64,000 bases of DNA from Actinomycetota bacterium. GTDB lineage: Bacteria > Actinomycetota > Acidimicrobiia > Acidimicrobiales > JAJPHD01. Location: NCBI GenBank assembly GCA_021325455.1, contig JAJPHD010000004.1, positions 62,001 through 126,000 of the forward strand, read 5' to 3'. Position numbers and translations under genes: made by a program. Below the pieces are notes generated by a model. The model saw nothing but the letters and a program-made list of their open reading frames with translations. It made no database searches and was not told the origin of the DNA. Below, piece after piece: positions 33,214 through 64,000 of the stretch (position 1 is the stretch's first letter; every line of letters starts with the position of its first letter).

Positions 33214-34020
33214 ATGGCTACCGACCTGGCCGGAGCCTTCGAGCGAACGGTGGAGGAGGGGGCCGACCGGCTGGAGCGGACCTGGCCCCGCCTGCTCGCC
33301 ACCGGCTCGGTGGGGGGGATCGACGTGGGGATAGGGGTGCTGGCCCTCCTCCTCGTCCAGGGGCTCACCCACAGCCGGGCGGCGGCCTCCCTCGCCTTCG
33401 GGGTGGGCTTCGTGGCCCTCACCCTGGCCAACTCCGAGCTGTTCACCGAGAACTTCCTCGTCCCCATCGCCGCCGTTACCGCCGGGAGGGCGCGGCCCCT
33501 CGCCGTCCTCAGGCTGTGGGCCGGCACCTTGGCCACCAACCTCCTGGGCGGGTGGGTGCTGATGGCGATCGTGGTGGCCGGCCTCCCCCAGGTGAGGCCC
33601 ATCGCCGTCCACCTCGGTGCCCACTTCGCTGCCGCCGGCGTGGGTACCCGGTCCTTCGCCACCGCCGTCCTGGGGGGCTGCGTGATCACGCTCATGACCT
33701 GGATGGAGCGGGGCACCGACTCCACCCTGGGCAAGCTGGTGGCGGCGGTGGGCACTGCCTTCCTCCTCGCCGCCGGCTCCCTCAACCACGCCATCGTCAT
33801 GTCCCTGGAGATGTTCGCCGGCCTGCAGGCAGGGGCCCACTACGGCTACGGCACCTGGGCCCAGGACCTCGGATGGGCGGTGTTCGGCAACCTGGTGGGT
33901 GGCATCGGGCTGGTGACCGTGCTGCGCCTGGTCCAGGTGGGCTCCACCCACATCCAGGAGGCCCGGGAGCAGTCCCGGCGCGACATGGAGGTGGAGGTGC
34001 CGGGCGGCCCTACTTCGTGA
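33214..34020 (+). CDS. formate/nitrite-transporter family channel
   Basis: A 268-residue membrane protein with six helices. FNT signatures are present: NSELFTENFL (omega-loop side) and SLNHAIV with the central His in helix 5. The family conducts formate, nitrite or hydrosulfide as weak acids. The C-terminal EREQ/AREQSRRDMEVEVP tail is typical of the actinobacterial YfdC-like group, so the exact anion is open. The ATG has GGGGGGAGGG just upstream. It overlaps the stop of the convergent substrate-binding gene by 11 nt. Confidence 0.87.
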   Translation: MATDLAGAFERTVEEGADRLERTWPRLLATGSVGGIDVGIGVLALLLVQGLTHSRAAASLAFGVGFVALTLANSELFTENFLVPIAAVTAGRARPLAVLRLWAGTLATNLLGGWVLMAIVVAGLPQVRPIAVHLGAHFAAAGVGTRSFATAVLGGCVITLMTWMERGTDSTLGKLVAAVGTAFLLAAGSLNHAIVMSLEMFAGLQAGAHYGYGTWAQDLGWAVFGNLVGGIGLVTVLRLVQVGSTHIQEAREQSRRDMEVEVPGGPTS

Positions 34021-35878: not shown

Positions 35879-35886
35879 TCGGTTCC

Positions 35887-38609: not shown

Positions 38610-38626
38610 GCAAGAGCGCCTCGCAA

Positions 38627-38639
38627 GTTGTCAGGCAAC
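38627..38639 (-). promoter_or_regulatory. candidate GntR operator
   Basis: The sequence GTTG-TCAGG-CAAC, an inverted repeat with 4-bp arms, lies 17 nt upstream of the GntR start. Its form resembles FCD-type GntR sites (TTGTxxxACAA-like). It lies in the 34-nt gap before the ycaQ-type gene, which is on the same strand upstream, so the promoter may be inside that gene's 3' end. Confidence 0.4.
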
Positions 38640-38643
38640 CAGG

Positions 38644-39924: not shown

Positions 39925-40049
39925 CGGGCCATGATGGCCTGGGCCCGTCAGGAAGGGCGAGATACCGCCTTCGCCGCGGTCCCAACCTTGACGCTATTCG
40001 TGGCCGACGGCTAGCGTCCCCGGCGATCCGGGCCATTTTCGATGGCGAA

Positions 40050-41960
40050 ATGCATATGGACAAGGAGACGTCGGCCGTCGTGATCCCCCCCCGCCGCGTG
40101 CCAACACCGACGCGCCGATCCCCGGCGCGAGCTGCCCGCTGGGCCATGGCCACTGTCGCCGGGGCCCTGCTCCTGGCCGCCTGCGGGGGAGGGGGGAGGC
40201 CCTCCAACGCCTCCTCCTCGGGGAGCACGGCCTCCACCTCGACGAGCGGCCATCCCGAGCGGGGGGGCACGGCCGTGTACGCCGAGGGGTCACAGGGCCA
40301 TCCCAACTACATCTTCCCGGTGGTGTCCTCGGAGTACAACTCGGTGGCGAACCAGGGGCATTTCATCAACTTCATGTGGGTCCCCCTCTACGTGATGGGA
40401 ACCCCCCATGGGGCGGGCCTCAACGAGGCCAAGAGCATCGCCTTCCCCCCCGTCTACTCCAATGACGACAAGACGGTGACGATCAGGCTGAAGCACTGGC
40501 AATGGTCGGACGGCAAGCCCGTGACCAGCCGGGACCTGCTGTTCTTCATGAACCTGGTCAAGGCCAACAAGGCGGTCTGGGGCCACTACGCCCCGGGCCA
40601 GATCCCCGACAACGTGGTGAGCTACAAGGCGACCGGCCCCTACACCTTCGTGATGCACCTCAATGCCTCCTACGACCCGATCTGGTTCACCGACGACCAG
40701 CTGAGCCTCCTCATGGTCCTGCCCCAGCATGCGTGGGACAAGACCTCCAAGACGGGCAAGGTGGGCAACTACGACCTGACCACGGCGGGGGCCAAGGCCG
40801 TCTACAAGTTCCTGGCCGGCCAGGCGACCGACCTCAACACCTACGCCTCCAACCCGCTGTGGAAGGTGGTGGACGGGCCCTGGAAGCTGCAGAGCTTCCA
40901 GTCCGACGGGGAGGCCGTCTTCGTGCCCAACAGCCGCTACTCGGGTCCCCACAAGCCCTACCTCTCCACCTTCAAGGAGGTGCCCTTCACCAGCGACAGC
41001 GCCGAGTTCAACAGCCTGGCCGCCGGCGATGTCACGGTCGGCTACCTCCCCAACACCGACATCAAGGACCAGAGCCGCCTGGCGGCGGCGGGGTACCACA
41101 TGGTCCGCTCGGCGGAGGACTACATCAACTTCCTGGTCCTCAACTTCCACAACCCCGTGACCGGCCCCCTGGTCCGCCAGCTCTATATCCGGGAGGCCTT
41201 GCAGCGGGTGATGGACGAGAAGCACCAGATAAAGAGCATCCTGCTCGGCATCGGGGGCCACACGGACTACGGGCCGGTGCCGCCCGAGATGAACTCCCCC
41301 TACGAGTCGTCGGTGCAGGCCTCCGGTCCCTACCAGTTCAGCGTCTCGGCGGCCCGCAAGCTGCTCACCAGCCACGGCTGGGCCATCCCGGGGAGCGGGC
41401 CGGCGGTGTGCACCAAGGCGGGATCGGGGCCCGGTGAGTGCGGGGCCGGCATCAAGAAGGGCCAGCGGCTGCAGTTCGACCTGGTCTTCGCCACGGGGTC
41501 GAGCTACCTGACCCAGGAGATGGAGAGCTACAAGTCCGACGCCGCCCAGGCGGGCATCGTGATCTCCCTTCGCAGCACGCCCTTCCAGAGCGTCATATCG
41601 ACGGTCCTGCCCTGTGCCGGCAAGTCCTGCTCCAACAGCTGGGAGATGGGGAACTGGGGCATCAACTTCGCCTGGGACTACGGGGACGGCTACCCGCTCG
41701 GGTCGGAGATCTTCGGGTCGGGGAACTACATCAACTACTCCAGCAAGGAGATGGGCAACCTCATCTCGGCGGCCCTGCACGCCCCCAAGGGGAAGGCCGT
41801 GGCGGCCATGAGGGCCTACGACACCTACCTCACCGAGCAGCTCCCGGTCATCTGGCAGCTGGTCACCTACAAGCTCCAGGAGGTCTCGAACAAGCTGGGC
41901 GGGGTGAGCTTCTATCCCACCCAGTACCTGACCCCTGAGGACTGGTACCGCACGCGGTAG
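40050..41960 (+). CDS. family-5 ABC substrate-binding lipoprotein (copy 3)
   Basis: A 636-residue paralogue of the two receptors on the other strand: Arg-rich n-region, lipobox LLLAAC (Cys45), Ser/Thr linker and an SBP_bac_5 domain (IRLKHWQWSDGKPVTSRDL, VDGPWKLQSF). Cysteine pairs again occur in the second lobe (CTKAGSGPGEC, CAGKSC). The start is uncertain: ATG 40050, 40056 or 40146; the first is used and gives a typical lipoprotein leader. It is followed by a dipeptidase-like amidohydrolase 39 nt downstream, suggesting that the captured solute is a small peptide. Confidence 0.9.
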   Translation: MHMDKETSAVVIPPRRVPTPTRRSPARAARWAMATVAGALLLAACGGGGRPSNASSSGSTASTSTSGHPERGGTAVYAEGSQGHPNYIFPVVSSEYNSVANQGHFINFMWVPLYVMGTPHGAGLNEAKSIAFPPVYSNDDKTVTIRLKHWQWSDGKPVTSRDLLFFMNLVKANKAVWGHYAPGQIPDNVVSYKATGPYTFVMHLNASYDPIWFTDDQLSLLMVLPQHAWDKTSKTGKVGNYDLTTAGAKAVYKFLAGQATDLNTYASNPLWKVVDGPWKLQSFQSDGEAVFVPNSRYSGPHKPYLSTFKEVPFTSDSAEFNSLAAGDVTVGYLPNTDIKDQSRLAAAGYHMVRSAEDYINFLVLNFHNPVTGPLVRQLYIREALQRVMDEKHQIKSILLGIGGHTDYGPVPPEMNSPYESSVQASGPYQFSVSAARKLLTSHGWAIPGSGPAVCTKAGSGPGECGAGIKKGQRLQFDLVFATGSSYLTQEMESYKSDAAQAGIVISLRSTPFQSVISTVLPCAGKSCSNSWEMGNWGINFAWDYGDGYPLGSEIFGSGNYINYSSKEMGNLISAALHAPKGKAVAAMRAYDTYLTEQLPVIWQLVTYKLQEVSNKLGGVSFYPTQYLTPEDWYRTR

Positions 41961-47280: not shown

Positions 47281-47351
47281 TACTGACGGAGTGGGCTCAA
47301 CGGCTCCTCCCCAGTGTGCCGCGGGGGCGGCTTCTAGGACGGGAGGCGGAC

Positions 47352-47942
47352 ATGGCGAGGTGGCGGACAGGGCTGGGGCGGATAGCGATCCTCGCCGGGC
47401 TGGTGCTGGGCAGCAGCTTCGCCGTGGCCGCCGCCGGCGCCGGGACGGCCTGGGCGGCTCCGGGCCACCACCGCCATCACCCCCACTGCCGCCGGCACCC
47501 GCACTACCCGCCCGGCCCGGCCGGCATCCAGCTGTCCCGGACCAGCGTCCCTCCCGGGGGCAGCCTGGTCGTCACGGCCGAGGGGTTCTGCCCCCACGTG
47601 GTGGTGAACGTCGACATCCACTCCGCCGATGCCCACCTGGCCACGGTGCACTCGGACAGCGCCGGCGACATCGACGTGCAGGTGGTGATCCCCACCAACC
47701 TCAAGCCGGGGTCCCACGAGATCGTGGCCAAGGGACAGGGCCCCAACGGCCTCCTGGTGCTGGAGGCCCAGGTCACCGTGACCAGCACGGCCCCGGTGGC
47801 GGCCGTCAGCCCCAAGGCCCCGACCACCTTGCCAATGACCGGCGCCGACATCGGGGCCATGGCGGCAGTGGGGGCCCTGCTCATCATCGGCGGCTCGGCC
47901 CTCCTCATGGGCCGGCACCGGGCAAGCGGCCACCGGGCCTGA
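47352..47942 (+). CDS. LPMTG-anchored cell-wall surface protein
   Basis: A 196-residue protein with a Sec signal peptide (about 1-35; LAGLVLGSSFAVAAAGAGTA), a His-rich patch (HHRHHPHCRRHPH) that could bind metal, an Ig-like beta domain (about 55-145; SRTSVPPGGSLVVTAEGF, VNVDIHSADAHLATV), a spacer, and a sortase signal LPMTG near residue 160 followed by a membrane helix and a basic tail (GRHRASGHRA). It would be linked to peptidoglycan by a sortase, none of which is in the window. The ATG has GGAGGC upstream. The glycan operon starts 12 nt after its stop. Confidence 0.85.
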   Translation: MARWRTGLGRIAILAGLVLGSSFAVAAAGAGTAWAAPGHHRHHPHCRRHPHYPPGPAGIQLSRTSVPPGGSLVVTAEGFCPHVVVNVDIHSADAHLATVHSDSAGDIDVQVVIPTNLKPGSHEIVAKGQGPNGLLVLEAQVTVTSTAPVAAVSPKAPTTLPMTGADIGAMAAVGALLIIGGSALLMGRHRASGHRA

Positions 47943-47954
47943 GCCACGGCGGCC

Positions 47955-49124
47955 ATGGCTGTCACGGCCCCGGCCTGGCCCGGGGACCTCGGGCTCGCCC
48001 CCGCCGCCCCCCGGGTGGCCACGGGGGCGGCGCCGGCCGTCGCCATCGTCCATGACTACCTGACCCAGCGGGGAGGGGCCGAGCGCCTGGTCCTCACCAT
48101 GGCCAAGGCGCTGCCCGGGGCCCCCATCCACACCTCGGTGTACGAGCCGGCCGGCACCTTCTCGGAGTTCGCCGGCCTGCCCGTGGTCCCCGGCCCCCTC
48201 AACCGGGTGCCCGCCCTGCGCCGCCACCACCGCCTGGCCCTGCCCGTCCTGGCCCCGGTCTTCTCGGCCCTGCGGGTGGAGGCCCCCGTCGTGCTGTGCA
48301 GCTCCAGCGGCTGGGCCCACGGCACCCCCGCCGCGGGCCGCAAGGTCGTCTACTGCCACACCCCGGCCCGCTGGCTCTACCAGGCTGCTCAATACCTGGG
48401 GGCCCGGGCTCCCCGGAGAAGGTCGGTGGCCCTGGGAGCCCTGGCCCCCCGGCTGCTGGCCTGGGACCAGGCCGCCGCTCGCTCCGCTCACCGTTACCTC
48501 ACCAACTCGACCGCCGTGCGGGACCGTATCCGGGAGACCTACGGCCTCGACGCCGAGGTGCTGCCCCCTCCCCCCACCCTGGACCCGGCCGGCCCCCAGG
48601 AGGAGGTGGAGGGCCTGGAGCCGGGCTTCCACCTCTGCGTCTCCCGGCTGCTCCCCTACAAGAACGTGGACGCCGTGGTGGAGGCGGTGGCCCGGATCCC
48701 CGGCGCCCGCCTGGCCGTGGCGGGCACCGGCCCCGAGGAGGCCAGGCTGCGGGCCAGCGCCCCCCCGGAGGTGACCTTCCTCGGGGCGGTGAGCGACGCC
48801 CGGCTGCGGTGGTGCTACGCCCACTGCCAGGCTCTGGTGGCCGCCTCCTACGAGGACTACGGCCTCACCCCCCTCGAGGCCAACCGCTTCGGCAAGCCGG
48901 CCGTGGTGCTGCGGGCCGGCGGGTTCCTGGACACCGTCGTCGAGGGGCGAAACGGCCTCTTCTTCGACGACCCCTCGCCCTCCACCATCGCCGGCGCCCT
49001 GCTGGCGGCGGGCATGGAGGACTGGTCCCCCGGCCTCATCCGGGCCCATGCCGAGGAGTTCTCGGAGGACCGGTTCGTGTCCCGGCTCCTCAGGGTGGTG
49101 GAGGAGGAGGCCCGGGCGGCGTGA
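47955..49124 (+). CDS. GT4 glycosyltransferase
   Basis: A 389-residue GT-B enzyme. The acceptor half has IVHDYLTQRGGAERLV, the donor half VSRLLPYKNVDAVVEA and YEDYGLTPLEANRFG with the E-x7-E pair that binds the nucleotide sugar. These are GT4 features, typical of mannosyl- and hexosyl-transfer to a lipid-linked glycan or trehalose-like acceptor. No membrane segment. It is the first gene of the long glycan operon. A 27-residue Ala/Pro leader may be unstructured. Confidence 0.88.
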   Translation: MAVTAPAWPGDLGLAPAAPRVATGAAPAVAIVHDYLTQRGGAERLVLTMAKALPGAPIHTSVYEPAGTFSEFAGLPVVPGPLNRVPALRRHHRLALPVLAPVFSALRVEAPVVLCSSSGWAHGTPAAGRKVVYCHTPARWLYQAAQYLGARAPRRRSVALGALAPRLLAWDQAAARSAHRYLTNSTAVRDRIRETYGLDAEVLPPPPTLDPAGPQEEVEGLEPGFHLCVSRLLPYKNVDAVVEAVARIPGARLAVAGTGPEEARLRASAPPEVTFLGAVSDARLRWCYAHCQALVAASYEDYGLTPLEANRFGKPAVVLRAGGFLDTVVEGRNGLFFDDPSPSTIAGALLAAGMEDWSPGLIRAHAEEFSEDRFVSRLLRVVEEEARAA

Positions 49125-50323
49125 CGGCCCTGGGCGCCGAGCCACAACCCGTCCTGCCCGGGGGCCGCTCCTCTCGCCGTGTCCCGGGCCCCCTCCGGGT
49201 GGCCATGGTGGGGGTGTCCGAGGGCCCCATCTGCGGGGTGCGGGACTACTCCGCCGTGGTGTCCCGGGCCCTGGAGGGCCGGGGGGGGGCCGAGGTGATG
49301 ACGTGCTGGCTCGACCGGGCCCCCGGCGCCGGGCTGGCCGCCTCCCGGCGGGAGGTTCGCTCCTGGGCGGCCCGGCTGGAGGGGTGGCTGGGCGAGGGCC
49401 GGCCCGAGGTGGTGCTCCTGCACTACTCGGTGTTCGCCTACAGCTACCGGGGGGTCCCGTTGCTTCTCGCCCCCGTCCTGGGGGCCCTGAGGCGCAGCGG
49501 GGTGCCGGTGGTGGCCCTCCTCCACGAGCTGGCCTACCCCTGGGGCCGCCGGGGGGCCCGGGGCCTGGCCTGGGCCCTCACCCAGAGGGCCGCCCTGCCC
49601 CTAGTGCTCCGGCTGTCCTCGGAGGTGGTGGTGACCACCGAGGATCGCCTGGCCTGGCTGGGCCGCCGGCGCTGGATCGCCCCGGTCCCGGCCCACTTCC
49701 TGCCCGTCCCCAGCAACGTGGACCCCGGCGAGGGAGGCCAGGCTGGCTCCGGGGAGGAGGGTGTGGTCGGCGTTTTCGGCTACGCCCCCGAGGGCATGCG
49801 GGCCGACCTGATGGTGGAGGCCGCCGCCCGCCTCGGGGCCTCGGGCCGCCCCGTGCGCCTCCGCCTGGTGGGAGCCCCTGGACCCGGGAGCGGGGCGGCC
49901 CGGGAGTGGGAGCGGCTGGCTGCTGCGGCAGGAGTGGAGGTGGAGCTCACGGGGGTGCTCGACGGCCGCGGCCTGTCGGCTGCCCTGCGCCGGTGCCCGG
50001 TAATGGTCTGGGCCGACGGCAGCGGCCCCACCTCCCGGCGCACCACCCTGGCCGCCCTCCTGGCCCACGCCCGGGCCGTGGTGGCCCTGGACGGGCCGGC
50101 CACCTGGGGGGGCCTGCGCGAGGCAGGGGCAGTCGAGCTGGTCCCCCCCGACGCCTCCCTCCTGGCCGCCTCGGTCGGCCGCCTGCTGGCCGGTGAGGAG
50201 GAGAGGGCCGCCTACGGGGAAAGGGCGGCCTGCTTCTACCGCTCCGCCATGGCCCCCGAGGTGGTGGCGGCCGGCCTGGAGCGGGTGCTGCGAGCCACCG
50301 CCCGACAGGGAGCAGCGACATGA
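49121..50323 (+). CDS. glycosyltransferase-like protein (GT-B fold)
   Basis: A 400-residue protein whose GTG overlaps the previous stop (GTGA). The N-half has VAMVGVSEGPICGVRDYS and LLHYSVFAYSYRGVP, the C-half VVGVFGYAPEGMRADLMVEAA and VWADGSGPTSRRTTLAALLA. The layout is a GT-B glycosyltransferase but the usual E-x7-E donor site is weak or absent, so it could be a divergent GT4 or an inactive partner of a neighbouring enzyme. Its place inside the operon supports a glycan role. Confidence 0.75.
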   Translation: MTALGAEPQPVLPGGRSSRRVPGPLRVAMVGVSEGPICGVRDYSAVVSRALEGRGGAEVMTCWLDRAPGAGLAASRREVRSWAARLEGWLGEGRPEVVLLHYSVFAYSYRGVPLLLAPVLGALRRSGVPVVALLHELAYPWGRRGARGLAWALTQRAALPLVLRLSSEVVVTTEDRLAWLGRRRWIAPVPAHFLPVPSNVDPGEGGQAGSGEEGVVGVFGYAPEGMRADLMVEAAARLGASGRPVRLRLVGAPGPGSGAAREWERLAAAAGVEVELTGVLDGRGLSAALRRCPVMVWADGSGPTSRRTTLAALLAHARAVVALDGPATWGGLREAGAVELVPPDASLLAASVGRLLAGEEERAAYGERAACFYRSAMAPEVVAAGLERVLRATARQGAAT

Positions 50324-52611
50324 GGGGAGGCCGGGGCCGGCCCGACCTCCTGGTGGTGAGCCACCCCGCCGTGGTGGGGGTGAACCAGGCCGTCTACGCC
50401 GAGCTGGCCCGCCGGGGGTGGGACGTGGGCCTGGTCACGCCGGCCCGCTGGCGCCACGACTACGCCTCTTCGCCGGTGCGGGCGGAGACCCTCCCCGCCC
50501 TGGCCGGCCGCCACCGGCGCCTCCCCACCGTGGGCCAGCCCCGTCCCCAGCGCCACGTGTACCTGGCCAGCGCCCACCTGGAGCTGGCCCGCCTGCGCCC
50601 CCGGGCCCTCTTCTGCGAGGCCGAGCCCTTCTCCCTGGCCGCCTCCCAGTGGTCCCGGGCCGCCTGGCGCCTTGGCATCCCCTTCGGGGTCCAGCAGGCC
50701 GAGAACCGGGACAGGGTCCTTCCCGCCCCCGTCCGGGCCCTGCGCCGCCAGGTCCTGGAAAGGGCCTCCTTCGTGGCCGCCCGCTCGCCCGCCGCCGCCG
50801 CCCTGGCCCGGCGATGGGGGGCGTCGGGCCGGGTGGAGGTGGTACCCCACCACGTCCCCGAGTTCGGCGCTCCCGGGCCGAGGGCGGGGGAGGGGTTCCG
50901 GGTGGGCTACGTGGGCCGCCTGGTGCCCGAGAAGGGGCTGGACACCCTGGTGGAGGCGGTGTCCATGCTGGGCGCCGGCACAGAGCTGGTGGTGGCGGGG
51001 GACGGACCCCTGCGGGAGTGGCTGCTGGCCCGGCGCCTGGGGGCCGCCACCCTGGGCTACCTGGGCCCGGTCCCCCACGACCGGGTGGACGAGGTCCTGT
51101 CCGGCCTGGACGTCCTGGTCCTGCCGTCGCGGACCACGCCGGCCTGGGCGGAGCAGTTCGGGCGGGTGCTCGTCGAGGCCCTGTGGTGCGGGGTGCCCGT
51201 GGTGGGCTCCGACTCGGGGGAGATCCCCTGGGTGGTCTCCACCACCGGAGGGGGCGCCACCTTCCCCGAGGGCGACGCAGCGGCCCTGGCTGCCATCCTC
51301 AAGGAGTGGCGGGGCGACCCCGGGCTGCGGGCCCGGCTGGCGGCCAGGGGCCGGGCCGAGGCCGCCCGCCGCTTCACCCCAGGAGCGGTGGCGACTGCGT
51401 TCGAGGAGGTGCTGGCTCCGCTGGTCCCGGGCCGGCGGCCTACCCCGGCGGAGGGGAGGCGGCCCCGGGTGGCCCTGGTGGCCCACAGCATCCACGACCA
51501 GGGCGGCATGGAGCGAGCCTGCGCCGAGCTGCTGCGCCGGGGCCGGGGCCAGGTGGACTTCGTGGTGGTGGCGGGCGAGCTGGACCCGGGGCTCCGGCCC
51601 CTGGTGTCAGAGTGGGTAAAGGTCCCCATCCCGGCCCGGCCTGCCCCCCTGCGCTTCTCCGCCTTCTACCTCGGGGCCGCTCTGGCCCTGTCCCGGGTGC
51701 GGGTCGACCTGGTGCACACGGTGGGGGCCATCGTCCCCAGCCGGGTCGACCTGGCCTCCGTGCACCACTGCCACGCCGGGTTCGTGGCCAAGGAGGGATC
51801 GCTCGCCCCCCGCCCAGCCCTACCGGCGCGCCGGGCCAACACGGCGCTGGCCCGCTGGCTGGCCCTGCGGGCCGAGTCCTGGTCCTACCGGCCCGGGCGC
51901 ACCCGCTGCCTGGCGGCGGTGTCCGACGGGGTGGCGGGGGAGCTGGGGAGGCACTACCCGGGCGTCCCCGCGGAGGTCACCCCCAACGGGGTGGACCGGG
52001 AGCGCTTCCGGCCCGACGGGGCGGCCCGCCGGGACCTCAGGGCGGAGGCCGCGGCGGGCGAGGAGGCGGTGGTCGCCCTCTTCGTGGGCGGGGACTGGGA
52101 CCACAAGGGGCTGGGCCTGGCCATCGAGGCCCTGGCCCGGGGCCGCGGGGAGCATCCCGGGCTGGTGCTGTGGGTGGTGGGGGAGGGCCCCCGGGCCCGC
52201 TTCGAGGGCCTGGCCGCCCGCCTGGGGGTGGACGGAGCGGTGCGCTTCTGGGGGAGGCGGGCCGACACCGAGAGGTTCTTCCAGGCCGCCGACCTCTTCG
52301 TCCTGCCCAGCGCCTACGAGACCTTCAGCCTGGTGGCCCACGAGGCGGCGGCATGCGGTCTCCCTCTGGTCGTGACGGGGGTCAACGGCGCGGCCGAGCT
52401 GGTCGGCAGGGACGAGGCGGGCATAGTGGTGGAGCGGGACCCGGCCGCCATCGCCCGGGCCCTGGGCCGCCTGTCCGCCGACCCGGCCCTGCGCCGGGGC
52501 ATGGGGGAGCGGGCCCGGGAGCGGGTGGCCCCCTTCACCTGGGACCGCTCGGCCCGGTCCGTCCTCGCCCTCTACGACTCCCTGCTCGGCGCGGGAGGCG
52601 GGGTGAGATGA
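50320..52611 (+). CDS. double GT4 glycosyltransferase fusion
   Basis: A 763-residue protein made of two full GT4 units. Unit one (about 1-370) has LLVVSHPAVVGVNQAVYAEL, VGYVGRLVPEKGLDTLVEA and the FGRVLVEALWCG donor segment. Unit two (about 380-763) has VALVAHSIHDQGGMERACAE, FVGGDWDHKGLGLAIEALA and YETFSLVAHEAAACG with E-x7-E. The two share only family-level similarity, so this is a fusion of different enzymes, perhaps adding two sugars in sequence. The ATG overlaps the upstream stop (ATGA). Confidence 0.9.
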   Translation: MRGGRGRPDLLVVSHPAVVGVNQAVYAELARRGWDVGLVTPARWRHDYASSPVRAETLPALAGRHRRLPTVGQPRPQRHVYLASAHLELARLRPRALFCEAEPFSLAASQWSRAAWRLGIPFGVQQAENRDRVLPAPVRALRRQVLERASFVAARSPAAAALARRWGASGRVEVVPHHVPEFGAPGPRAGEGFRVGYVGRLVPEKGLDTLVEAVSMLGAGTELVVAGDGPLREWLLARRLGAATLGYLGPVPHDRVDEVLSGLDVLVLPSRTTPAWAEQFGRVLVEALWCGVPVVGSDSGEIPWVVSTTGGGATFPEGDAAALAAILKEWRGDPGLRARLAARGRAEAARRFTPGAVATAFEEVLAPLVPGRRPTPAEGRRPRVALVAHSIHDQGGMERACAELLRRGRGQVDFVVVAGELDPGLRPLVSEWVKVPIPARPAPLRFSAFYLGAALALSRVRVDLVHTVGAIVPSRVDLASVHHCHAGFVAKEGSLAPRPALPARRANTALARWLALRAESWSYRPGRTRCLAAVSDGVAGELGRHYPGVPAEVTPNGVDRERFRPDGAARRDLRAEAAAGEEAVVALFVGGDWDHKGLGLAIEALARGRGEHPGLVLWVVGEGPRARFEGLAARLGVDGAVRFWGRRADTERFFQAADLFVLPSAYETFSLVAHEAAACGLPLVVTGVNGAAELVGRDEAGIVVERDPAAIARALGRLSADPALRRGMGERARERVAPFTWDRSARSVLALYDSLLGAGGGVR

Positions 52612-53285
52612 GCGCCGTCGTCACCGGGAGGCACCTGGAGGAGAGGACCGCTCCTGGGCTGCACGACTTCCTGGCCCGGGAGGTGCTGTCCCGCTACGCC
52701 CCTGGTGCCCGGGTGGTGGACCTGGGGGCCGGCAGCGGGGCCCTGGCCCGCCGCCTGGCCGACATGGGGGCGGAGGTGACGGCCTGCGACCAGGCCCCCG
52801 TGCGGGCCGGTCCCGGGGTCAGGTTCGTCCCCCTGGACCTGGACCGGCCCGCCTTCTCCGAGGTGGTGGGGCGCAGGGTGTGGGACCTGGTGGTCGCCGT
52901 GGAGGTGATCGAGCACCTGGAGGCGCCTCTGGCCTTCCTGCGGGAGGTGGCCGCCCTGCTCGCCCCCCGAGAGGTGGCCGTCATCACCACGCCCAACCTC
53001 GACTCCCTCCCGGCCCGGGGCCGCTTCGCCCTCAAGGGCTCGCTGCGCCAGTTCGACCGTTGGGGCGACCCCACCCACATATCACCCATCTTCTGGCCCC
53101 TCCTCCAGGAGCGCTACCTGCCCCAGGCCGGGCTCTCGGTGGCCGAGCACCTCTTCTACCCGCCCCTCGGCTTCGTGGTGGGGCGCCCCCTCTACCAACG
53201 GGCCCTCCGACCCTGGGGGAGGCTGCTGGCCGCCGCCGGGCTGGCCGGGGACGTGCACGTGCTGGTGCTGGAGCCCAGGCGGTGA
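52608..53285 (+). CDS. SAM-dependent methyltransferase
   Basis: A 225-residue class-I methyltransferase: the SAM loop VVDLGAGSGALARRLADMG near residue 37, VTACDQ at the acidic second strand, and EVIEHLEAPLAFLREV (motif IV). The C-terminal half includes WGDPTHISPIFW. In glycan clusters such enzymes O-methylate sugars. The ATG overlaps the previous stop. Confidence 0.85.
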   Translation: MSAVVTGRHLEERTAPGLHDFLAREVLSRYAPGARVVDLGAGSGALARRLADMGAEVTACDQAPVRAGPGVRFVPLDLDRPAFSEVVGRRVWDLVVAVEVIEHLEAPLAFLREVAALLAPREVAVITTPNLDSLPARGRFALKGSLRQFDRWGDPTHISPIFWPLLQERYLPQAGLSVAEHLFYPPLGFVVGRPLYQRALRPWGRLLAAAGLAGDVHVLVLEPRR

Positions 53286-54457
53286 GCCGCCCTCCCGGCG
53301 CCGCCCCCGCCCCCGGAGGTGGCCGGGGACGGTCGGTGCTGCTGGTGAGCCCCGGCGCCACCCCCGGGGGGGCGGAGCGGGCCCTGGCCGGCCTGGCCCG
53401 CCGCCTCCCCGAGGCCGGGTTTCGGCCCCTGGTGGTCCTGCTGCAGCGGGGCCCCTTCGAGTCCTGGCTGGCGGAGGCGGGGTGTCCCTTCCGGGTGATG
53501 CCGGCCGGGAGGGGGCGCCAGGTGCACCGGGCCGCAGCCACCGTCCTCCGGCTGGGCCGGCTGGTCCGGGCCAGCGGGGTGGAGGCCGTCATCTCCAACT
53601 TGGGGAAGGGCCACTGCTACGGTGGGCCGGCCGCCCTGGCCGGGGTGCCCACCATCATGTGGCAGCAGGGGATCCCCCTGGCCAACCGGTTCGAGAGGGC
53701 CGCATCCCTGGTCCCGGCAGCGGCCGTGGTGGCCAGCTGCGACCAGGCGGTGGCGGCCCAGCGCCACCTGACCCCGGGCCGCCGGGTGGTGAAGATCCCC
53801 CCGGGGTGCGCCATCGAGGAGATAGAGGCGCGCCGGGGCGGGGGCGGGGCCATCCGCCAGGCCCTCGGCTGGGAGGGGTCCCCGGTGGTGGGCATCGTGG
53901 GCCGCCTCGAACGCTGGAAGAGCCAGGACGTGTTCCTGCGGTCCGCCGCCCAGGTGGCCCAAGAGCGCCCCGACGTGCGCTTCGTGGTGGTGGGGGGGGC
54001 GGTGCTGGGATGGGAGGGGTCGTACCCCGCCGAGCTGGAGGCCCTGGCCCGGGACCTGCCCGGGCTGGCGGGACGGGTCCACTTCGCCGGGCACCAGGAA
54101 GATGTCTATCCCTGGTTCGACGCCCTGGACGTGGTGGTGCACGCCTCCTACGGCGAGCCCTTCGGCCTGGTCCTGGTGGAGGCCATGGCCCTGGGCCGCC
54201 CCCTGGTGGCCACGGCGGCAGGAGGCCCGGTCGAGATCGTCGAAGACGGCGTCTCGGGCCTGCTGGTACCCCCGGGGGGCCCGGGGGCCATGGCGAGAGC
54301 CGTCCTCCGCCTGCTCTCGGATCCCGGCCTGGCGGCCCGGCTGGGCGCCGGGGCCAGGGCCAGGGCCACTCGCTTCAGCGACACGCAGATGGCGGCCAAC
54401 TTCGCCGCCCTGCTCGACGAGGTGGCGGGGAGCCGCCGGCTGGCGGAGGTCGGCTAG
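53282..54457 (+). CDS. GT4 glycosyltransferase
   Basis: A 391-residue GT4 enzyme: VLLVSPGATPGGAERALAGLA in the acceptor half, VGIVGRLERWKSQDVFLRSAA and SYGEPFGLVLVEAMALG with E-x7-E in the donor half. The GTG start overlaps the methyltransferase stop (GTGA). The motif PPGCAIEEIE and the typical length suggest a soluble, membrane-associated enzyme acting on the lipid-linked glycan. Confidence 0.9.
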   Translation: MSRPPGAAPAPGGGRGRSVLLVSPGATPGGAERALAGLARRLPEAGFRPLVVLLQRGPFESWLAEAGCPFRVMPAGRGRQVHRAAATVLRLGRLVRASGVEAVISNLGKGHCYGGPAALAGVPTIMWQQGIPLANRFERAASLVPAAAVVASCDQAVAAQRHLTPGRRVVKIPPGCAIEEIEARRGGGGAIRQALGWEGSPVVGIVGRLERWKSQDVFLRSAAQVAQERPDVRFVVVGGAVLGWEGSYPAELEALARDLPGLAGRVHFAGHQEDVYPWFDALDVVVHASYGEPFGLVLVEAMALGRPLVATAAGGPVEIVEDGVSGLLVPPGGPGAMARAVLRLLSDPGLAARLGAGARARATRFSDTQMAANFAALLDEVAGSRRLAEVG

Positions 54458-54459
54458 GC

Positions 54460-56241
54460 GTGTGCGGGATCGTGGCGGCCTGGGGGAGGGAGGCGGAGCA
54501 CGACGCCCGCTTCCTGCTGGAGGGCGTCCGCCACCGGGGGCCGGACGACTCGGGCTCCCTCGCCATCGGGGCGGTGACCCTGGCCATGGCCCGCCTGGCC
54601 GTACTCGACCCCACCCCGGGGGCGAGCCAGCCCATGAGCGAGGGCGGTGTCCACCTCGTCTACAACGGCGAGGTCTACAACTTCGGCTCCCTCCGCCGCC
54701 ACCTGGAGCAGGCCGGGTGGCGGTTCGCCACCACCGGGGACACCGAGGTGGTGCTGAAGGCCGTGCTGCACTGGGGGCGGTCGGCCTGCCAGCGCCTAGA
54801 GGGGATGTTCGCCCTCGTCGTCCACGACGAGCGGGAGGGGGCGCTGTGGGCGGCCCGGGACCGCCTCGGCATCAAGCCCCTCTACTGGTGCCGCCGCCCC
54901 TCGGGCGGGCTGGCCCTGGCCTCCGAGGCCTCCCCCCTGGCCTCCTGCTACGGGCTCGGCCCCGACCCGGCCGGGGTGGCCGAAGTGCTCGGCTTCGGGT
55001 CCCCCATCGGGACCTCGGCCTACCTCGGGGTCCACGAGGTCGAGCCCGGGACGGTGACGGACTTCGGCCCGGACGGCCCCACCAGGACCCGCCCCTTCCC
55101 GGCCCCGGCCGATCCCGGTGCCTCCCTGGCCCAGGTCTTCCCCTCGGCGGTGGAGCGCCACCTGGTGAGCGACCGGCCCGTGGCCCTGTTCCTGAGCGGG
55201 GGGTTCGACTCGGCGGCCATCGCCTCCTTCGCCCCCTCCTCCTCCCTCACCGCCATCACCCTGGCCTACGCCGGCAACGCCGGGGACGTGGGCCGGGCCC
55301 GGGAGACCGCCACCGCCTGCGGCCTGGAGCACCGGGTGGTGGAGGTGGCGGCGGACGATGTCCCCGGGTGGTCACGGGGCTTCCTCGCCGCCATGGACCA
55401 GCCCACGGTGGACGGGTTCAACACCTACCTGGTGTCAGGGGTGGCGGCCGAGGCCGGCTTCCCGGTCGCCCTGAGCGGCCTGGGCGGAGACGAGGTCCTG
55501 GGCGGCTACGGCTACGCCCGCAGGTGGCGCCAACTGACCCTGGTTGCCCGGGCCTGGCCATTCCTCCCCCCGGGGGCGAGGCACGCCCTCGCCTCCCGGC
55601 TGGCCGCCCGCTACCGGCGCTCGCCCTCGCAGGTGACAGCCATGCTGTCGGCCCGGGACCAGCCCGGGCGCCACGCGGCCTGGCGGTCGGTCTTCGAGCC
55701 CGAGGAGGTGCTCGACCTCACCGGGGTGAGCCTGGACGGGGGAGCGCCCTGGCAGGTGGACCCGGCGGCACCGGCCCGGTCCCAGCTCCGCCAGCTCGAC
55801 CTCCAGGCCTACCTGCGCCCCGTGCTCCTCCGGGACACCGACGTGTTCTCCATGGCCCACGGCATCGAGGTCCGGGTCCCCTTCCTGGACCAGGGAGTGG
55901 TGGGGGCGGCCGCATCGGGGCCGGCCACCAAGGCCTCCCTGGCGAGGGAGTGGGGGGACCCCTATCTCGTGGCCCTGGCCCGCCGGCCCAAGCTGACCTT
56001 CGCCCTCCCCTGGGACCAGTGGATGGCTCCCGTCCTGGCCGAGACGAGGGACCTCCTGGCCGGCCCCGACCCCTGGCGGGGCCTGGTCGACCCGGCCCCG
56101 GCCCGGTCCCTGGCCCTGGGCGGGAGCCCGGGCCGCTCCCCCTTGCGCCAGTGGGCCCTGGTCGTGCTGGCCCGGTGGCTGGAGCGGGGCCCGGAGGGCC
56201 GCCGGCTCCGCCCCTGCCCCGTCCCCGCCCGGGTGCCGTGA
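54460..56241 (+). CDS. asparagine-synthase-like amidotransferase
   Basis: A 593-residue protein starting GTG TGC, so Cys2 is the Ntn nucleophile after Met removal (MCGIVAAWG). The glutaminase half includes RHRGPDDSG and YNGEVYNF. The synthetase half has the ATP PP-loop SGGFDSAA (about 245), and SGLGGDEVLGGYGY. AsnB-like proteins in glycan clusters (as in WbpS/AsnB) amidate sugar uronic acids rather than make asparagine, so it may form a sugar amide; that is an inference. Only two bases separate it from the previous stop. Confidence 0.9.
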   Translation: MCGIVAAWGREAEHDARFLLEGVRHRGPDDSGSLAIGAVTLAMARLAVLDPTPGASQPMSEGGVHLVYNGEVYNFGSLRRHLEQAGWRFATTGDTEVVLKAVLHWGRSACQRLEGMFALVVHDEREGALWAARDRLGIKPLYWCRRPSGGLALASEASPLASCYGLGPDPAGVAEVLGFGSPIGTSAYLGVHEVEPGTVTDFGPDGPTRTRPFPAPADPGASLAQVFPSAVERHLVSDRPVALFLSGGFDSAAIASFAPSSSLTAITLAYAGNAGDVGRARETATACGLEHRVVEVAADDVPGWSRGFLAAMDQPTVDGFNTYLVSGVAAEAGFPVALSGLGGDEVLGGYGYARRWRQLTLVARAWPFLPPGARHALASRLAARYRRSPSQVTAMLSARDQPGRHAAWRSVFEPEEVLDLTGVSLDGGAPWQVDPAAPARSQLRQLDLQAYLRPVLLRDTDVFSMAHGIEVRVPFLDQGVVGAAASGPATKASLAREWGDPYLVALARRPKLTFALPWDQWMAPVLAETRDLLAGPDPWRGLVDPAPARSLALGGSPGRSPLRQWALVVLARWLERGPEGRRLRPCPVPARVP

Positions 56242-58580
56242 GCGCCACGCCTCCCCCCCACCCGCCCCTCCGGGTCGCCATGCTCGGGATGGAGTGGCCC
56301 ACCGTGGCCCCCGGGGGCCTCAACCGCTACCTGGCCGACCTGGGCCAGGCCCTGGAGGGCCGGGGCGTCGCCGTGGAGAAGGTGGTGGCGGGGCTCGCCC
56401 CCCCCGGTGTGACCGGGGCGGGCACCCTCCGCCAGCCCCTCCCCGCGCGAGCTCTGCGCTACTGGGTGGCGGCCCGGCCCCACCTCTCCCGGGCCGACCT
56501 GGTCGATGCCCACTTCGCCCCCTACGCCCTCCTCTCCGTGGCCCTGCCCGGGAGGCCGAGGTGTCCTCTGGTCGTGCACTTCCAGGGGCCCTGGGCCGAG
56601 GAGAGCGCCGTGGAGGGCCAGGCCCGGTGGGCCGTGGCCCTGAAGGCCAGGGTGGAGAGAGCCGTCTACCGCCGGGCCGACCTGGTGGTCACCCTGTCGG
56701 GGGCCTTCCGGCGCATCGCCGTGGAGCGCTACGGCGTCTCCCCCTGGGCCACCCGGGTCATGCCGCCGGGGGTGGACCTGGAGGCCTTCTCGCCCGGCGA
56801 CCGCCTCCGGGCCCGGGAGGCCCTGGGGCTCGGGCCCCGCCAGCACGTGGTGGTGAGCGTGCGGCGCTTGGCCCCCCGCATGGGACTGGACGACCTCCTG
56901 GAGGCTTGGGCCAAGGCCGTCCCCGAGCTGGACGACCCCGTCCTGCTGGTGGTTGGCGAGGGACCGCTCCGGGCCGAGCTGGAGGCCCGGGCCCGCATCT
57001 TGTCGGTGACCAACCGGGTCCGCTTCCTCGGGCGGGTGGCGGACGCCACCCTGGTGAACTGCTTCCGGGCTGCCGACCTGTCCGTGGTGCCCTCCCGGGC
57101 CCTGGAGGGCTACGGCCTGGTGGTGCTGGAGTCCCTGGCTTGCGGCACACCGGTGATCGCCACCGACACGGGCGGCTTGCCCGAGGCCCTGGCCGGGCTC
57201 CCGGGTCACCTCACGGTGCCTGCCCGAGACCCGGGGGCCCTGGCCCAGGCCCTGCTGGATGCCCTGAGGGACCCCTCCGGGCGGGCCGACCCGGGCGCCT
57301 GCCGGCGCCAGGCCGAGGCCCATTCTTGGGACGGGGTGGCCGGGGCCCACCTGGACGCCTACCGCCGCGTCCTCCAGGGAGGGGAGCGCAAGCTGCGGGT
57401 CGTCTACCTGGACCACTGCGCCCGGCCCTCCGGCGGGGAGCTGGCCCTGGCCCGGCTCCTGCCCGCCCTGGAGGGGGTGGAGCCCCACGTAGTCCTGGCC
57501 GAGGAGGGCCCCCTGGTGGGGATCCTCCACCAGGCGGGGGTGTCGGTGGAGGTGCTCCCCATGGCGGAGGGGGCCCGGCGCCTCAGCCGGGACCGGGTCC
57601 GGCCCGGCAGGGTGGGAGGGGCGGCCGTGGGGGCCGCCTCGGCCTACGTCCTGCGCCTGGCCCGGCGTCTGCGGACGCTCCGGCCCGACCTGGTCCACAC
57701 CAACTCGCTCAAGGCCGCCGTCTACGGCGCCCTGGCCGCCCGCCTGGCGGGCGTGCCGGTGGTGTGGCACATCCGGGACCGGGTGGCGCCTGACTACCTG
57801 CCCGCCCCGGCGGTGGCCGCCCTGCGGGGCCTGGCCCGGGTCCTGCCCAGCCATGTCATAGCCAACTCGCAGGCCACCCTGGCCTGCCTGCCGGTGGCCG
57901 AGGGCCGGGCCTCGGTGGTGCCCAGCCCCGTGGAGCTGCCCCGGGAGGCTCCCATCGCGGGCGAGGCTCTCATGCCCCGGGCCGGGGGACCGCTCACCGT
58001 GGGCATGGTGGGCCGGCTGGCGCCCTGGAAGGGCCAGGACCTCTTCCTGCGGGCCTTTGCCACCGCCTTCCCCGACGGCCCCGAGCGGGCGGTCCTGGTC
58101 GGGGAGGCCCTCTTCGGGGAGGACGACTACGCCGGGGAGCTGAGGAGCCTGAGCGCCCGGCTCGGCCTGGAGGGCCGGGTGGACTGGCGGGGCTTCCGGG
58201 CCGATGTGGGGGCCGAGCTGCGGGGCCTGGACGTGCTGGTCCACGCCTCGGTGGTACCCGAGCCCTTCGGCCAGGTGGTGGTGGAGGGGATGGCCGCCGG
58301 CCTGCCCGTGGTGGCGGCCGGGGCCGGCGGCCCCGCCGAGACCGTCACCGACGGGGTGGACGGCCTGCTCTACCCTCCCGGGGACGTGGGTGCCCTGGCC
58401 GAGAGGCTCCGGCTCCTGGCCAGTGACCCGGACCTCCGGGCCCGGCTGGGGCGGGCCGGCGCCCGCCGGGCCCAAGCCTTCTCGGCCGAGGCCCTGGCCC
58501 CGCTGGTGCTCCACGCCTACCAGCAGGTGTGCCCCTCGCTCCTGGGCCGGGGAGCCGATCACGGCGGGAGCCAGCCGTGA
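56238..58580 (+). CDS. double GT4 glycosyltransferase fusion
   Basis: A 780-residue protein with two GT4 units. Unit one (about 1-385): VAMLGMEWPTVAPGGLNRYLA, VVSVRRLAPRMGLDDLLEA, GYGLVVLESLACG. Unit two (about 390-780): RVVYLDHCARPSGGELALA, VGMVGRLAPWKGQDLFLRAF, VPEPFGQVVVEGMAAG. Each has the donor-site E-x7-E. This is the second such fusion in the operon and not a simple copy of the first. The GTG start overlaps the upstream stop (GTGA). Confidence 0.9.
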   Translation: MSATPPPHPPLRVAMLGMEWPTVAPGGLNRYLADLGQALEGRGVAVEKVVAGLAPPGVTGAGTLRQPLPARALRYWVAARPHLSRADLVDAHFAPYALLSVALPGRPRCPLVVHFQGPWAEESAVEGQARWAVALKARVERAVYRRADLVVTLSGAFRRIAVERYGVSPWATRVMPPGVDLEAFSPGDRLRAREALGLGPRQHVVVSVRRLAPRMGLDDLLEAWAKAVPELDDPVLLVVGEGPLRAELEARARILSVTNRVRFLGRVADATLVNCFRAADLSVVPSRALEGYGLVVLESLACGTPVIATDTGGLPEALAGLPGHLTVPARDPGALAQALLDALRDPSGRADPGACRRQAEAHSWDGVAGAHLDAYRRVLQGGERKLRVVYLDHCARPSGGELALARLLPALEGVEPHVVLAEEGPLVGILHQAGVSVEVLPMAEGARRLSRDRVRPGRVGGAAVGAASAYVLRLARRLRTLRPDLVHTNSLKAAVYGALAARLAGVPVVWHIRDRVAPDYLPAPAVAALRGLARVLPSHVIANSQATLACLPVAEGRASVVPSPVELPREAPIAGEALMPRAGGPLTVGMVGRLAPWKGQDLFLRAFATAFPDGPERAVLVGEALFGEDDYAGELRSLSARLGLEGRVDWRGFRADVGAELRGLDVLVHASVVPEPFGQVVVEGMAAGLPVVAAGAGGPAETVTDGVDGLLYPPGDVGALAERLRLLASDPDLRARLGRAGARRAQAFSAEALAPLVLHAYQQVCPSLLGRGADHGGSQP

Positions 58581-58804
58581 GCGAGGGAGGGGAGAGGCCG
58601 CCGTTGGTGAGCGTCATCGTTCCCACCTACGACCGTCCCGCCTACCTGGAGGAGGCAGAGGCCAAGAGGACCCTGGCCCGGGCCTTCCGCCACCGTCCAA
58701 GCCCCCGCACGCTGGCGGCCTGGTCGGCCGCCTGGCTGCCGGGGACGATCAGGGCCAGGATCCCGGCCACTCGAGCTCCCCGCCTCCAGCGCTCCGCCAG
58801 CTGA
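58577..58804 (+). pseudogene. GT2 glycosyltransferase remnant (internal deletion)
   Basis: The GTG overlaps the previous stop and begins VSVIVPTYDRPAYLEEA, the unmistakable first strand of a GT2 enzyme. Instead of the GT-A core it jumps to RTLARAFRHRPSPRTLAAWSAAWLP, which resembles a glycosyltransferase C-terminal helix. The frame is kept. So about 200 or more residues seem deleted in frame, with the junction near 58650-58665. The 75-residue product cannot be a glycosyltransferase. Its end overlaps the convergent polymerase gene by 56 nt. Confidence 0.7.
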
Positions 58805-60254
58805 TCCAGGAGCGGTCCACCCACCCCAGGGCCAGCCAGGGGAGCCAGGCCACGGCGTACTGGCCGCCGTTCAGCCACTGGAGCAGGGTGGCCACCAGCA
58901 GGCCCAGCACGGCCAGGGCCACGAAGTCCCGCCGGGCCGCCGCCAGGCGGTAGGCCCGGGCCATCCCCACCAGCACCACCACCAGATAGGCGGCCAGGCC
59001 GGCCACCCCCCAGGCCACGGCGGCGTTGGAGGGGTCGACCTCGGTGGTCTGGGCCGTGCCCCCGAACTTGGAGGCGGCCAGGGTGATGGACCCCGTCCCG
59101 TGTCCGACGGGGTTGGTGAACCCCGACCGCAGGCCCTGGCCCAGCTCCTGGAGATGGATGCGCAGGGTGGAGCTCTGGGGGTTGAGCGGCTGGCTGAGCC
59201 CGCTCACCTGGTGGTTGAGAAGGGCGGCGGTGCTACCGGTCCCCTGGACCTGGTGGGGGCCGAGGTGGGAGAGGACCACCACCAGCACAGCCACGGCAGC
59301 CACGCCGGCCAGGGCGGCCGGCACCAGGCCCAGGCGGGCCCGGGCGGCCACCATGACCCCGAGGGCCACCACGCTGAGCACGACGATGCCCCGGGAGGAG
59401 TCGAGGACGATGGCCGTCCCCAGCAGGGCGATGGCGCCCAGCGCCAGAGGAAGCAGGGCCTTCCGGCGCCCCAGGGCGAACCAGGCCACCAGCCCCACCC
59501 CGAGGAAGGAGGCGTACTCGGCCGATGAGGAGAAGCTGGAGAAGGCCCGGATGACGCCCCCCACGTTGAGGGCGGCGTAGGTGCCGTTGCTGGTCACGGC
59601 CTGGATCCAGCGCTGGTCCCAGGGGGGGAAGCCGGCCAGGGTCTGCACCAGGCCGTAGATGGAGGCCGCCACGGCCAGGATGGCCAGGAGAACGAGGAGG
59701 TGGCGCATGGTGCGGTCGTCCACGAGGCTGCGCCCCACCCAGAAGGCGAGGACGGGGACCAGGACGAGGAGCAGGCCCCCGATGCCCACCGAGATCCCCC
59801 CCTGGAGGGGGTTGACCGCCTCGACCAGGGCCAGGAGGCAGATGACCAGCACGGCGTTGGCCAGCCTGGTGCGCCGCCGCCCCGCTCCCCGGGACAGAGC
59901 CACCCCCACCAGGAGCACCATGACCAGGGCCTCGACCAGGAGGAGCGGGTCACCCAGCAGGGCGTGGCTCCCCAGCCCGTAGAGGAGGCGGCGGAGCAGG
60001 CCCACCCCGGCCAGCCAGATGGCCAGGCCGAGGACCAGGTGGCGAGGGGCCCGCAGGGCCAGGGCCAGGACGGGGACGGCGATGGCGACCAGGAGGACAA
60101 CCTGGGTGAGGGGCCCGAAGCTGAGGGCCACGCCGGCCAGGAGAGCCCCTCCCCCGAGGAGCAGGACCAGCCCCACGGCCCGGTTCCCGGGCACCGGCAA
60201 CCCTTTCGGGGGGTGCACGGCAGCGGCGCGCCGAGGCTCTCTCAGGGCCAGCAT
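58749..60254 (-). CDS. O-antigen ligase/polymerase-like membrane protein
   Basis: A 501-residue membrane protein with about 12 helices. A large extracellular loop (about 325-400) carries the kind of residues seen in Wzy/WaaL proteins (STLRIHLQELGQGLRSGF, NPVGHGTGSITL). The O-antigen ligase family joins or polymerises lipid-linked glycan repeats outside the membrane. It lies on the strand opposite the operon, directly beyond its end. In Gram-positive bacteria such proteins polymerise exopolysaccharide. Confidence 0.87.
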   Translation of the reverse strand: MLALREPRRAAAVHPPKGLPVPGNRAVGLVLLLGGGALLAGVALSFGPLTQVVLLVAIAVPVLALALRAPRHLVLGLAIWLAGVGLLRRLLYGLGSHALLGDPLLLVEALVMVLLVGVALSRGAGRRRTRLANAVLVICLLALVEAVNPLQGGISVGIGGLLLVLVPVLAFWVGRSLVDDRTMRHLLVLLAILAVAASIYGLVQTLAGFPPWDQRWIQAVTSNGTYAALNVGGVIRAFSSFSSSAEYASFLGVGLVAWFALGRRKALLPLALGAIALLGTAIVLDSSRGIVVLSVVALGVMVAARARLGLVPAALAGVAAVAVLVVVLSHLGPHQVQGTGSTAALLNHQVSGLSQPLNPQSSTLRIHLQELGQGLRSGFTNPVGHGTGSITLAASKFGGTAQTTEVDPSNAAVAWGVAGLAAYLVVVLVGMARAYRLAAARRDFVALAVLGLLVATLLQWLNGGQYAVAWLPWLALGWVDRSWISWRSAGGGELEWPGSWP

Positions 60255-62392: not shown

Positions 62393-63609
62393 GAGACGTC
62401 ATCACCCCTGGCCGGCGTCGACTGGGTGCCTGACCGCTCGGCCCCCTTCGACCGTTCCGCAAGGAGGGCGGCGTAGGCTTCGAGCTCGAGGGGAGTGACG
62501 CGGGTCCAGGTGAAGCAGGCGGCCCGCGCCCGGCATGCCTCGGCCCGGGACAGCATCTCGTCCCCGGTGGAGGAGAGGAGGCCCAGGACCCGCTCCGTCA
62601 TGGCCTCGATGTCGCCGGGGGGCACGAGGAGGTCCCGGTCGAGGGGCCCGAGGATGTGAGCCGGGCCCGGCACGTCGTAGCTGACCACGGGGATGCCTGC
62701 AGCCAGGAGCTCGACGGCGGCGAGGCCCCAGCCTTCGATGTAGGTGGGGAACACCCCGACCGAGGCGCCGGCCAGCAGGCGGGGGAGATCGGGGGGGTCG
62801 AAGCGCTCCACCACCTGGAGCCGGTCGTCGGACGGACGGCCCAGGTCGGTCCTCACCAAGGCCTCGGAGACTCCGGTCCCGAGGAGGAGGAAGCGAGCCT
62901 CCGGGCAGGCCCCCCAGATCCGGGCCGTCAGCTCGGGGAAGTCGGCAGCGCCCTTGCGCCTATCCCAGGAGCCGATGAAGGCGATGGTGGGCGATGCGGT
63001 GCCAGCCCTTGGCAGCGGCCGGTGGGCGAGGGCGTCGAAGGCCGCCTGGGATATGGCCGAGGGCACCGCGACGACCTTGGGGCACCATCGGGGGTTGGAT
63101 TCCAAGAAAGTGCGCTCGGCGTCGTTGCGGGCAATGATGAGGTCGGCCATGTCGAAGCTCCGGTTCGTGGCCCACTCCATCACGCCCATCCCAAGCCTGT
63201 CCCGATGCCTGTTCACCTTGGCCCGGATGCCGGGCCGGCTGGCCCACTGGAAGTTTCCTCCGGTGCGCAGCTCCCACTCCTGGTAAAGGTGAACGAGCCC
63301 GGCCGATCTGACCACCGTGACACAGCCGGGTGAAAGGTGGCCGCGGCCCAAAGGAAGGTGGCCCTGGAGGGTGCGCAGCACGTCAAAGGTGCGTGAAGTT
63401 CGCCGGAGGAAGCGGCCCAGGGCCAGGGAGAAGGGGTAGGGGTTGTAGGGGAGGATCGGTCGGTGGGCAGAGTCGAGACCGGCGTCCTCCAGGGAGAACT
63501 TGGTGACCTCGTGGCCGAGGCGGGTGAGCTCCTCGGCGAGCTCCATGTCGGCTCGCGCCGCCCCGAGATCGCGGCGCCACGAGAAGGGGGAGACGATCAG
63601 GATCCTCAT
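62359..63609 (-). CDS. GT4 glycosyltransferase
   Basis: A 416-residue GT-B enzyme with LIVSPFSWRRDLGAARADME, the donor-half FIGSWDRRKGAADFPELTA and YIEGWGLAAVELLAAG (E-x7-E). The start ATG overlaps the stop of the flippase gene (ATGA), so the two are coupled. The C-terminus is a short Ser/Arg-rich tail. Confidence 0.88.
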   Translation of the reverse strand: MRILIVSPFSWRRDLGAARADMELAEELTRLGHEVTKFSLEDAGLDSAHRPILPYNPYPFSLALGRFLRRTSRTFDVLRTLQGHLPLGRGHLSPGCVTVVRSAGLVHLYQEWELRTGGNFQWASRPGIRAKVNRHRDRLGMGVMEWATNRSFDMADLIIARNDAERTFLESNPRWCPKVVAVPSAISQAAFDALAHRPLPRAGTASPTIAFIGSWDRRKGAADFPELTARIWGACPEARFLLLGTGVSEALVRTDLGRPSDDRLQVVERFDPPDLPRLLAGASVGVFPTYIEGWGLAAVELLAAGIPVVSYDVPGPAHILGPLDRDLLVPPGDIEAMTERVLGLLSSTGDEMLSRAEACRARAACFTWTRVTPLELEAYAALLAERSKGAERSGTQSTPARGDDVSQRDGTYSRLQ

Positions 63610-64000
63610 GTATAACTGTCCGGAGGCTGAGACCCGTCTGAACCCGCTGGGGGGAAGTCCGCTACGGTCGATCGGACGTTCCAGTGGTGCCGAGCTCCGG
63701 GCAGGCCTCGCAGGTAGGAGAGGACGCCCTGGACGAGGTCCGGGACGTCGCCAATCCTCGGGACCAGGTCCTGGCAGCCGACCCGGGACAGGAAGGTGGC
63801 TTGGATGAGGAAGGTCACGATGAAGTCCAAGCTGGTGACCGCGGCGGCCGCTTGGATGCCGAAGGCCGGAAGGGTGAGGGGAAGCCCCAGCACCGTGATC
63901 AAGGTGCCGCCGAGCTGGCCCAAGGAGGCCTTCCCGGGGCGCCCGAGCACGTTGAGAGAGGCTTCGGTGGCCCCCATGCCGCTCATGGCCACGGTCCCGG
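63606..64000 (-). CDS. polysaccharide flippase-like protein (partial)
   Basis: The C-terminal part of a membrane protein, continuing past the right edge. It has helices GQLGGTLITVLGLPLTLPAFG and AAAVTSLDFIVTFLIQATFL, in the style of Wzx/MATE-type glycan flippases, followed by a cytoplasmic tail. The preceding segment (GATEASLNVLGRPGKAS) resembles the inter-helix loop of such transporters. Placed before a GT4 it would move the lipid-linked unit across the membrane. Confidence 0.7.
   Translation of the reverse strand, partial: GTVAMSGMGATEASLNVLGRPGKASLGQLGGTLITVLGLPLTLPAFGIQAAAAVTSLDFIVTFLIQATFLSRVGCQDLVPRIGDVPDLVQGVLSYLRGLPGARHHWNVRSTVADFPPAGSDGSQPPDSYT

Follow-up and report, generated by a model that had tools for sequence, protein, structure and literature searches.

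Glycosyltransferases that carry several modules on one chain are an already known kind. The WbdA mannosyltransferases of Escherichia coli O9a and Klebsiella pneumoniae O3/O5 are built from modules belonging to GT4. WbdA is a polymerase that works in an ABC-transporter pathway, and its two or three glycosyltransferase modules each provide one linkage (PMC11231755). Among single GT4 enzymes, the closest described systems are HepE (Alr3699), a single-domain protein of Anabaena that takes part in making the heterocyst envelope polysaccharide, and WaaG and MshA, which have the same fold. A literature search for tandem GT4 proteins returned little.

The window analysed here, a stretch of 64,000 nucleotides from an Acidimicrobiales genome, encodes two proteins with two GT4 units each: gene C (positions 50320-52611, + strand; 763 residues, ATG start) and gene G (56238-58580, + strand; 780 residues). 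As in WbdA, several modules lie on one chain, but the modules come from four unrelated GT4 lines, and the likeness is one of layout. The ABC-transporter-dependent context of WbdA is also absent from the locus; its neighbours are instead a Wzx-type flippase and a protein resembling Wzy_C. We think it likely, with a probability of roughly 0.7, that genes C and G encode bifunctional GT4–GT4 enzymes, each made of two unrelated GT4s of the cluster, with both halves adding sugars to a repeat unit. What is new relative to known multi-module enzymes is which modules are paired, that the pairings originated independently, and that re-pairing has occurred repeatedly inside a single cluster family.

Operon layout and architecture of the two double GT4 proteins

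The operon (47955-58580, + strand) consists of seven tightly packed genes, A to G. Five of the six junctions overlap by 4 bases (ATGA or GTGA), which makes co-transcription and translational coupling of the seven genes probable. Gene A (47955-49124, +; 389 residues), which comes first, is a single GT4 according to Pfam (PF00534, E = 6.6e-22) and synteny. Gene B (49121-50323, +; 400 residues, GTG start) encodes a divergent GT4-like protein with Pfam matches below the curated cut-off; the motif check found no E-x7-E in it, and the position expected for this motif reads SGPTSRRTTLAALLAHA (within 49121-50323). Homologues of gene B with approximately 40% identity are conserved at three other loci (L025, L165 and L166), where they are in frame with an FkbM methyltransferase.

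The initial annotation described the two double genes as lying side by side, together with separate GT4 genes. Single GT4 genes are indeed present and the double genes share the operon, but three genes stand between them: D, a SAM-dependent methyltransferase (52608-53285, +; 225 residues; PF13489, E = 4e-16), E, a single GT4 identified by Pfam and the tree (53282-54457, +; 391 residues), and F, an asparagine-synthase-like amidotransferase (54460-56241, +; 593 residues, GTG start, MCGI; PF00733 and PF13537). The GTG start of gene G overlaps the stop of gene F. On the opposite strand follows gene H (58749-60254, −), a membrane protein with approximately 12 transmembrane segments that hydropathy and synteny mark as Wzy/O-antigen-ligase-like; in the Pfam search gene H itself gave no match, while its homologue at L085 passes the PF04932 (Wzy_C) cut-off, and the gene belongs to the conserved neighbourhood. 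The C-terminal part of a Wzx-type flippase lies at 63606-63998 (−), in a gene that continues beyond the end of the window; searched as the complete gene (L156), it matches PF13440. A GT2, an FkbM methyltransferase and a further GT4 are also found near the operon. Taken together, the region resembles a polysaccharide locus that works by the flippase/polymerase route.

Both double proteins match PF00534 twice (whole-protein E = 1e-58 for gene C and 2.5e-66 for gene G) and, according to Pfam, contain two N-terminal GT4 domains each, with a short linker between the units. We refer to the halves, all on the + strand, as C_N (residues 1-378; 50320-51453), C_C (residues 379-763; 51454-52611), G_N (residues 1-382; 56238-57383) and G_C (residues 383-780; 57384-58580). 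Pfam, AlphaFold and Foldseek comparison to GT4 structures agree that all four halves have the full GT-B architecture, with an N- and a C-terminal Rossmann domain, confirming that each gene holds two complete GT4 units. The AlphaFold model of gene C consists of two confident modules (mean pLDDT 89.5), the mutual placement of which is left open by a pTM of 0.54, from an alignment with only three fused sequences. For gene G, the model likewise has two confident modules (mean pLDDT 87.1), and the pTM of 0.82 predicts a defined arrangement of the two.

MshA and WaaG are the closest solved structures for gene C, at about 20-24% identity and among the best matches of its model. For gene G the closest is HepE/Alr3699, via the C-terminal half. 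G_C aligns with HepE over its full length (phmmer, E = 2e-50), and HepE is its best fold match (Foldseek, 4xsr, 30-31% identity), in a structure bound to UDP-glucose. G_C differs from single-domain HepE in being fused, and in having an Arg where HepE has a second His.

Double GT4 fusions had been called rare in the initial annotation. In this genome they account for 2 of 30 PF00534 matches (approximately 28 GT4 proteins), but they are not unique: among the best 150 PF00534 matches listed for 13 genomes of the order, there are two further same-frame pairs (G010, contig C242, and G005, contig C40). Double GT4 proteins are uncommon, not unique. Chance was rejected as their source, as was a sequencing or frameshift artefact, since both fusions recur in other genomes.

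The E-x7-E donor motif is present in C_N (EQFGRVLVE, 51151-51177), C_C (ETFSLVAHE, 52318-52344), G_N (EGYGLVVLE, 57105-57131) and G_C (EPFGQVVVE, 58260-58286), all on the + strand, and across the four half-families it is kept in each of the 50 members that were compared. The initial annotation had named, as a finding against its reading, a half that lacks the donor site and acts only as a scaffold; loss of the donor site did not appear in any of these halves or homologues. The basic pair that contacts the donor phosphate is R/K in C_N and G_C, G/K in C_C and R/M in G_N, and these residues are near-invariant inside each half-family. The position of the usual catalytic His (T-x-H) is canonical only in C_C (7 of 9 members of its family); C_N has Ala, G_N has Gln (Gln or His across its family) and G_C has Arg (mostly Arg in its family, sometimes His). 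Both G_N and G_C have a His two residues before this position. For C_N, a His there or nearby is seen in 0 of 7 members, and the motif check did not find the classic N-terminal Gly-Gly loop. Since unfused homologues share the non-canonical residues, these characterise the subfamilies and do not reflect degeneration that followed fusion. None of the four halves reaches an NCBIfam equivalog cut-off.

Independent origins and distribution of the fusions

The initial annotation had proposed a tree of the GT4 halves as a check on whether the fusions arose independently. Our maximum-likelihood tree takes in 88 GT4 units, comprising those of the window, 19 others of the genome, and halves and single genes of relatives. 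C_N, C_C, G_N and G_C form four separate supported clades, with relatives' standalone genes in that of C_N. It follows that two unrelated GT4 lines meet in each protein and that the fusions arose independently of each other. The G_C clade is sister to that of gene E. Two simpler origins were rejected on this tree: internal duplication of one GT4 in each protein, given that the halves fall into separate clades, and a common origin of both fusions.

The 780-residue fusion is old, being carried by more than ten other actinobacterial genomes. It occurs in G021, G022, G056, G109, G116, G152, G212, G270 and G359, in several named MAGs (L060 to L069) and, outside the class, in G510 and G520. Elsewhere the halves also occur as separate genes. 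Paenibacillus has genes homologous to those of the window in the order G_N, G_C, A, but as three separate adjoining genes, unlike the fused gene G. G_N and G_C are also separate and adjoining in an Armatimonadota MAG, and they are neighbours in reversed order in a Phycisphaerales MAG. As a side observation, in family f23 the gene immediately after G_N–G_C is a fusion of a GT2 and a GT4 (L024:9584-11773, L049:8717-10828, L051:2841-5165 and others).

The 763-residue fusion was found in two further MAGs (loci L061 and L062), in both directly after the G_N–G_C gene, and was not found in the sampled 59 relatives, 395 class genomes and 396 phylum genomes. C_N and C_C are present as separate genes at the same locus as a G homologue in G022, G116, G270 and a named MAG (L063), where the separate C_C gene mostly lies immediately ahead of the G homologue. 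This sharing of a locus by the unfused halves indicates that the fusion partners belong to one conserved cluster. The C_N–C_C fusions of the window and of L061 and L062 may stem from one fusion event or from two; their grouping in a single clade could not be rejected (p-AU 0.435).

Changing partners and an identity drop at the linker

Several genomes combine the same modules differently. In G510, C_C is fused to a GT4 of the gene E type (identities of 61% to E and 54% to C_C); this locus also has a G_N–G_C gene and so contains two double-GT4 genes, in a pairing unlike that of the window. G518 (L158) has an E-type gene and C_C next to each other without a fusion. A GT2 is the fusion partner of C_C in G056. 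Altogether, C_C is found behind three different N-terminal transferases and G_C behind at least four. Other partners of G_C are a C_N-like GT4 (L055), a third GT4 type (L035 and L077) and a fourth (L070), and in some relatives G_C stands alone. There are also GT2–GT4–GT4 triples that end in the HepE-like G_C, with the third GT4 type in the middle (L053:7419-11834 and L098:7883-11152). For the set of N-terminal halves, well-supported branches of the tree force at least four changes.

Because partners differ among genomes, a given pair does not amount to a disaccharide-adding unit fixed for the whole family. The proposal of the initial annotation that sugars are added in pairs therefore cannot hold as a family-wide rule; for a given strain it is plausible, with WbdA as the nearest functional precedent, and makes a reasonable hypothesis.

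The loci L061 and L062, both of which retain in-frame C_N–C_C fusions (L061:4776-7268 and L062:9844-13680), bear on how partners may change. Their DNA identity is 85-97% (approximately 92%) over nearly all of C_N, falls to approximately 60% at L061:6050-6100, i.e., at the C_N/C_C linker, and stays lower through C_C and gene H. The simplest reading of these sequences would be a recombination joint at the linker and possibly a module swap. Given the low coverage of both contigs (about 2.7x), the drop may instead come from a chimeric assembly. We tentatively suggest, although we would not bet on it, that in this cluster family the polysaccharide is diversified through new pairings among a limited set of glycosyltransferase modules in fused enzymes, with the linker as the recombination seam.

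Proposed function and alternative explanations

In the mechanism that we propose, each protein arose when two unrelated GT4 genes of one polysaccharide cluster were joined end to end, and it would act as a cytoplasmic, retaining enzyme. Each half would use its own nucleotide-sugar donor to extend a growing lipid-linked repeat unit by a sugar of its own. The unit would then be modified by the methyltransferases and the amidotransferase of the locus, flipped by Wzx, and polymerised or ligated by the Wzy/WaaL-like protein. Fusion would hold two pathway enzymes at 1:1 and side by side. Catalysis by every half, a consecutive order of the sugars, channelling and the Wzx/Wzy route are what we infer. 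The fusion probably serves two consecutive steps, although a fused pair need not do so, since partners vary between genomes.

The main competitor accepts that both halves are active but holds that they do not act consecutively, the fusion being a neutral by-product of overlapping genes or only securing co-expression. We regard this as a real contender, if somewhat short of even odds. With 4-base overlaps at most junctions of the operon, a single indel could join two reading frames, and the free change of partners also speaks for this reading; the persistence of G_N–G_C across families and classes and the defined arrangement predicted for gene G nevertheless suggest a benefit. It is rather unlikely that only one half is catalytic in one or both proteins, with the other serving as a scaffolding, membrane-holding or acceptor-binding pseudo-enzyme. 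The most likely candidate for such a role would be C_N, given its missing catalytic His and classic Gly-Gly loop, yet C_N keeps both R/K and E-x7-E in 7 of 7 members, standalone copies included, which argues for activity.

We consider it very improbable that the double proteins are WbdA-like polymerases that alternate two linkages many times and so build a whole chain. Multi-module enzymes of this layout with known function are polymerases (WbdA, PMC11231755), and Foldseek weakly lists the capsule multienzyme 8qoy; the Wzx flippase, the Wzy_C-like protein and the several single glycosyltransferases of the locus, however, suit block-wise assembly. On balance, both proteins are probably ordinary two-step enzymes of a cluster that repeatedly re-pairs its enzymes.

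Fusion of glycosyltransferases gives a hint as to which glycan assembly steps are coupled. The naturally fused, split and re-paired versions of these modules in relatives allow one to ask whether fusions mark consecutive steps, and the same modules raise the question of whether exchange at the linker could alter a polysaccharide. They would also offer clues about the polymers at the surface of uncultured Acidimicrobiia and their relatives, the chemistry of which was not found in the literature searched.

Three features of the wider surroundings may be mentioned. Just upstream of the operon (47316-47942) lies a gene for a 208-residue secreted protein with an LPMTG motif, a transmembrane segment and a basic tail, which is like a sortase substrate. 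Further upstream, the stretch 34010-41960 holds, close together, the genes of three large extracellular proteins that resemble one another and bind solutes for ABC transporters of the peptide type. Past the downstream end of the window, contig C27 encodes at L156:15446-18319 (−) a 958-residue protein with Ig-like domains of the HYDIN/ASH/DUF1573 type.
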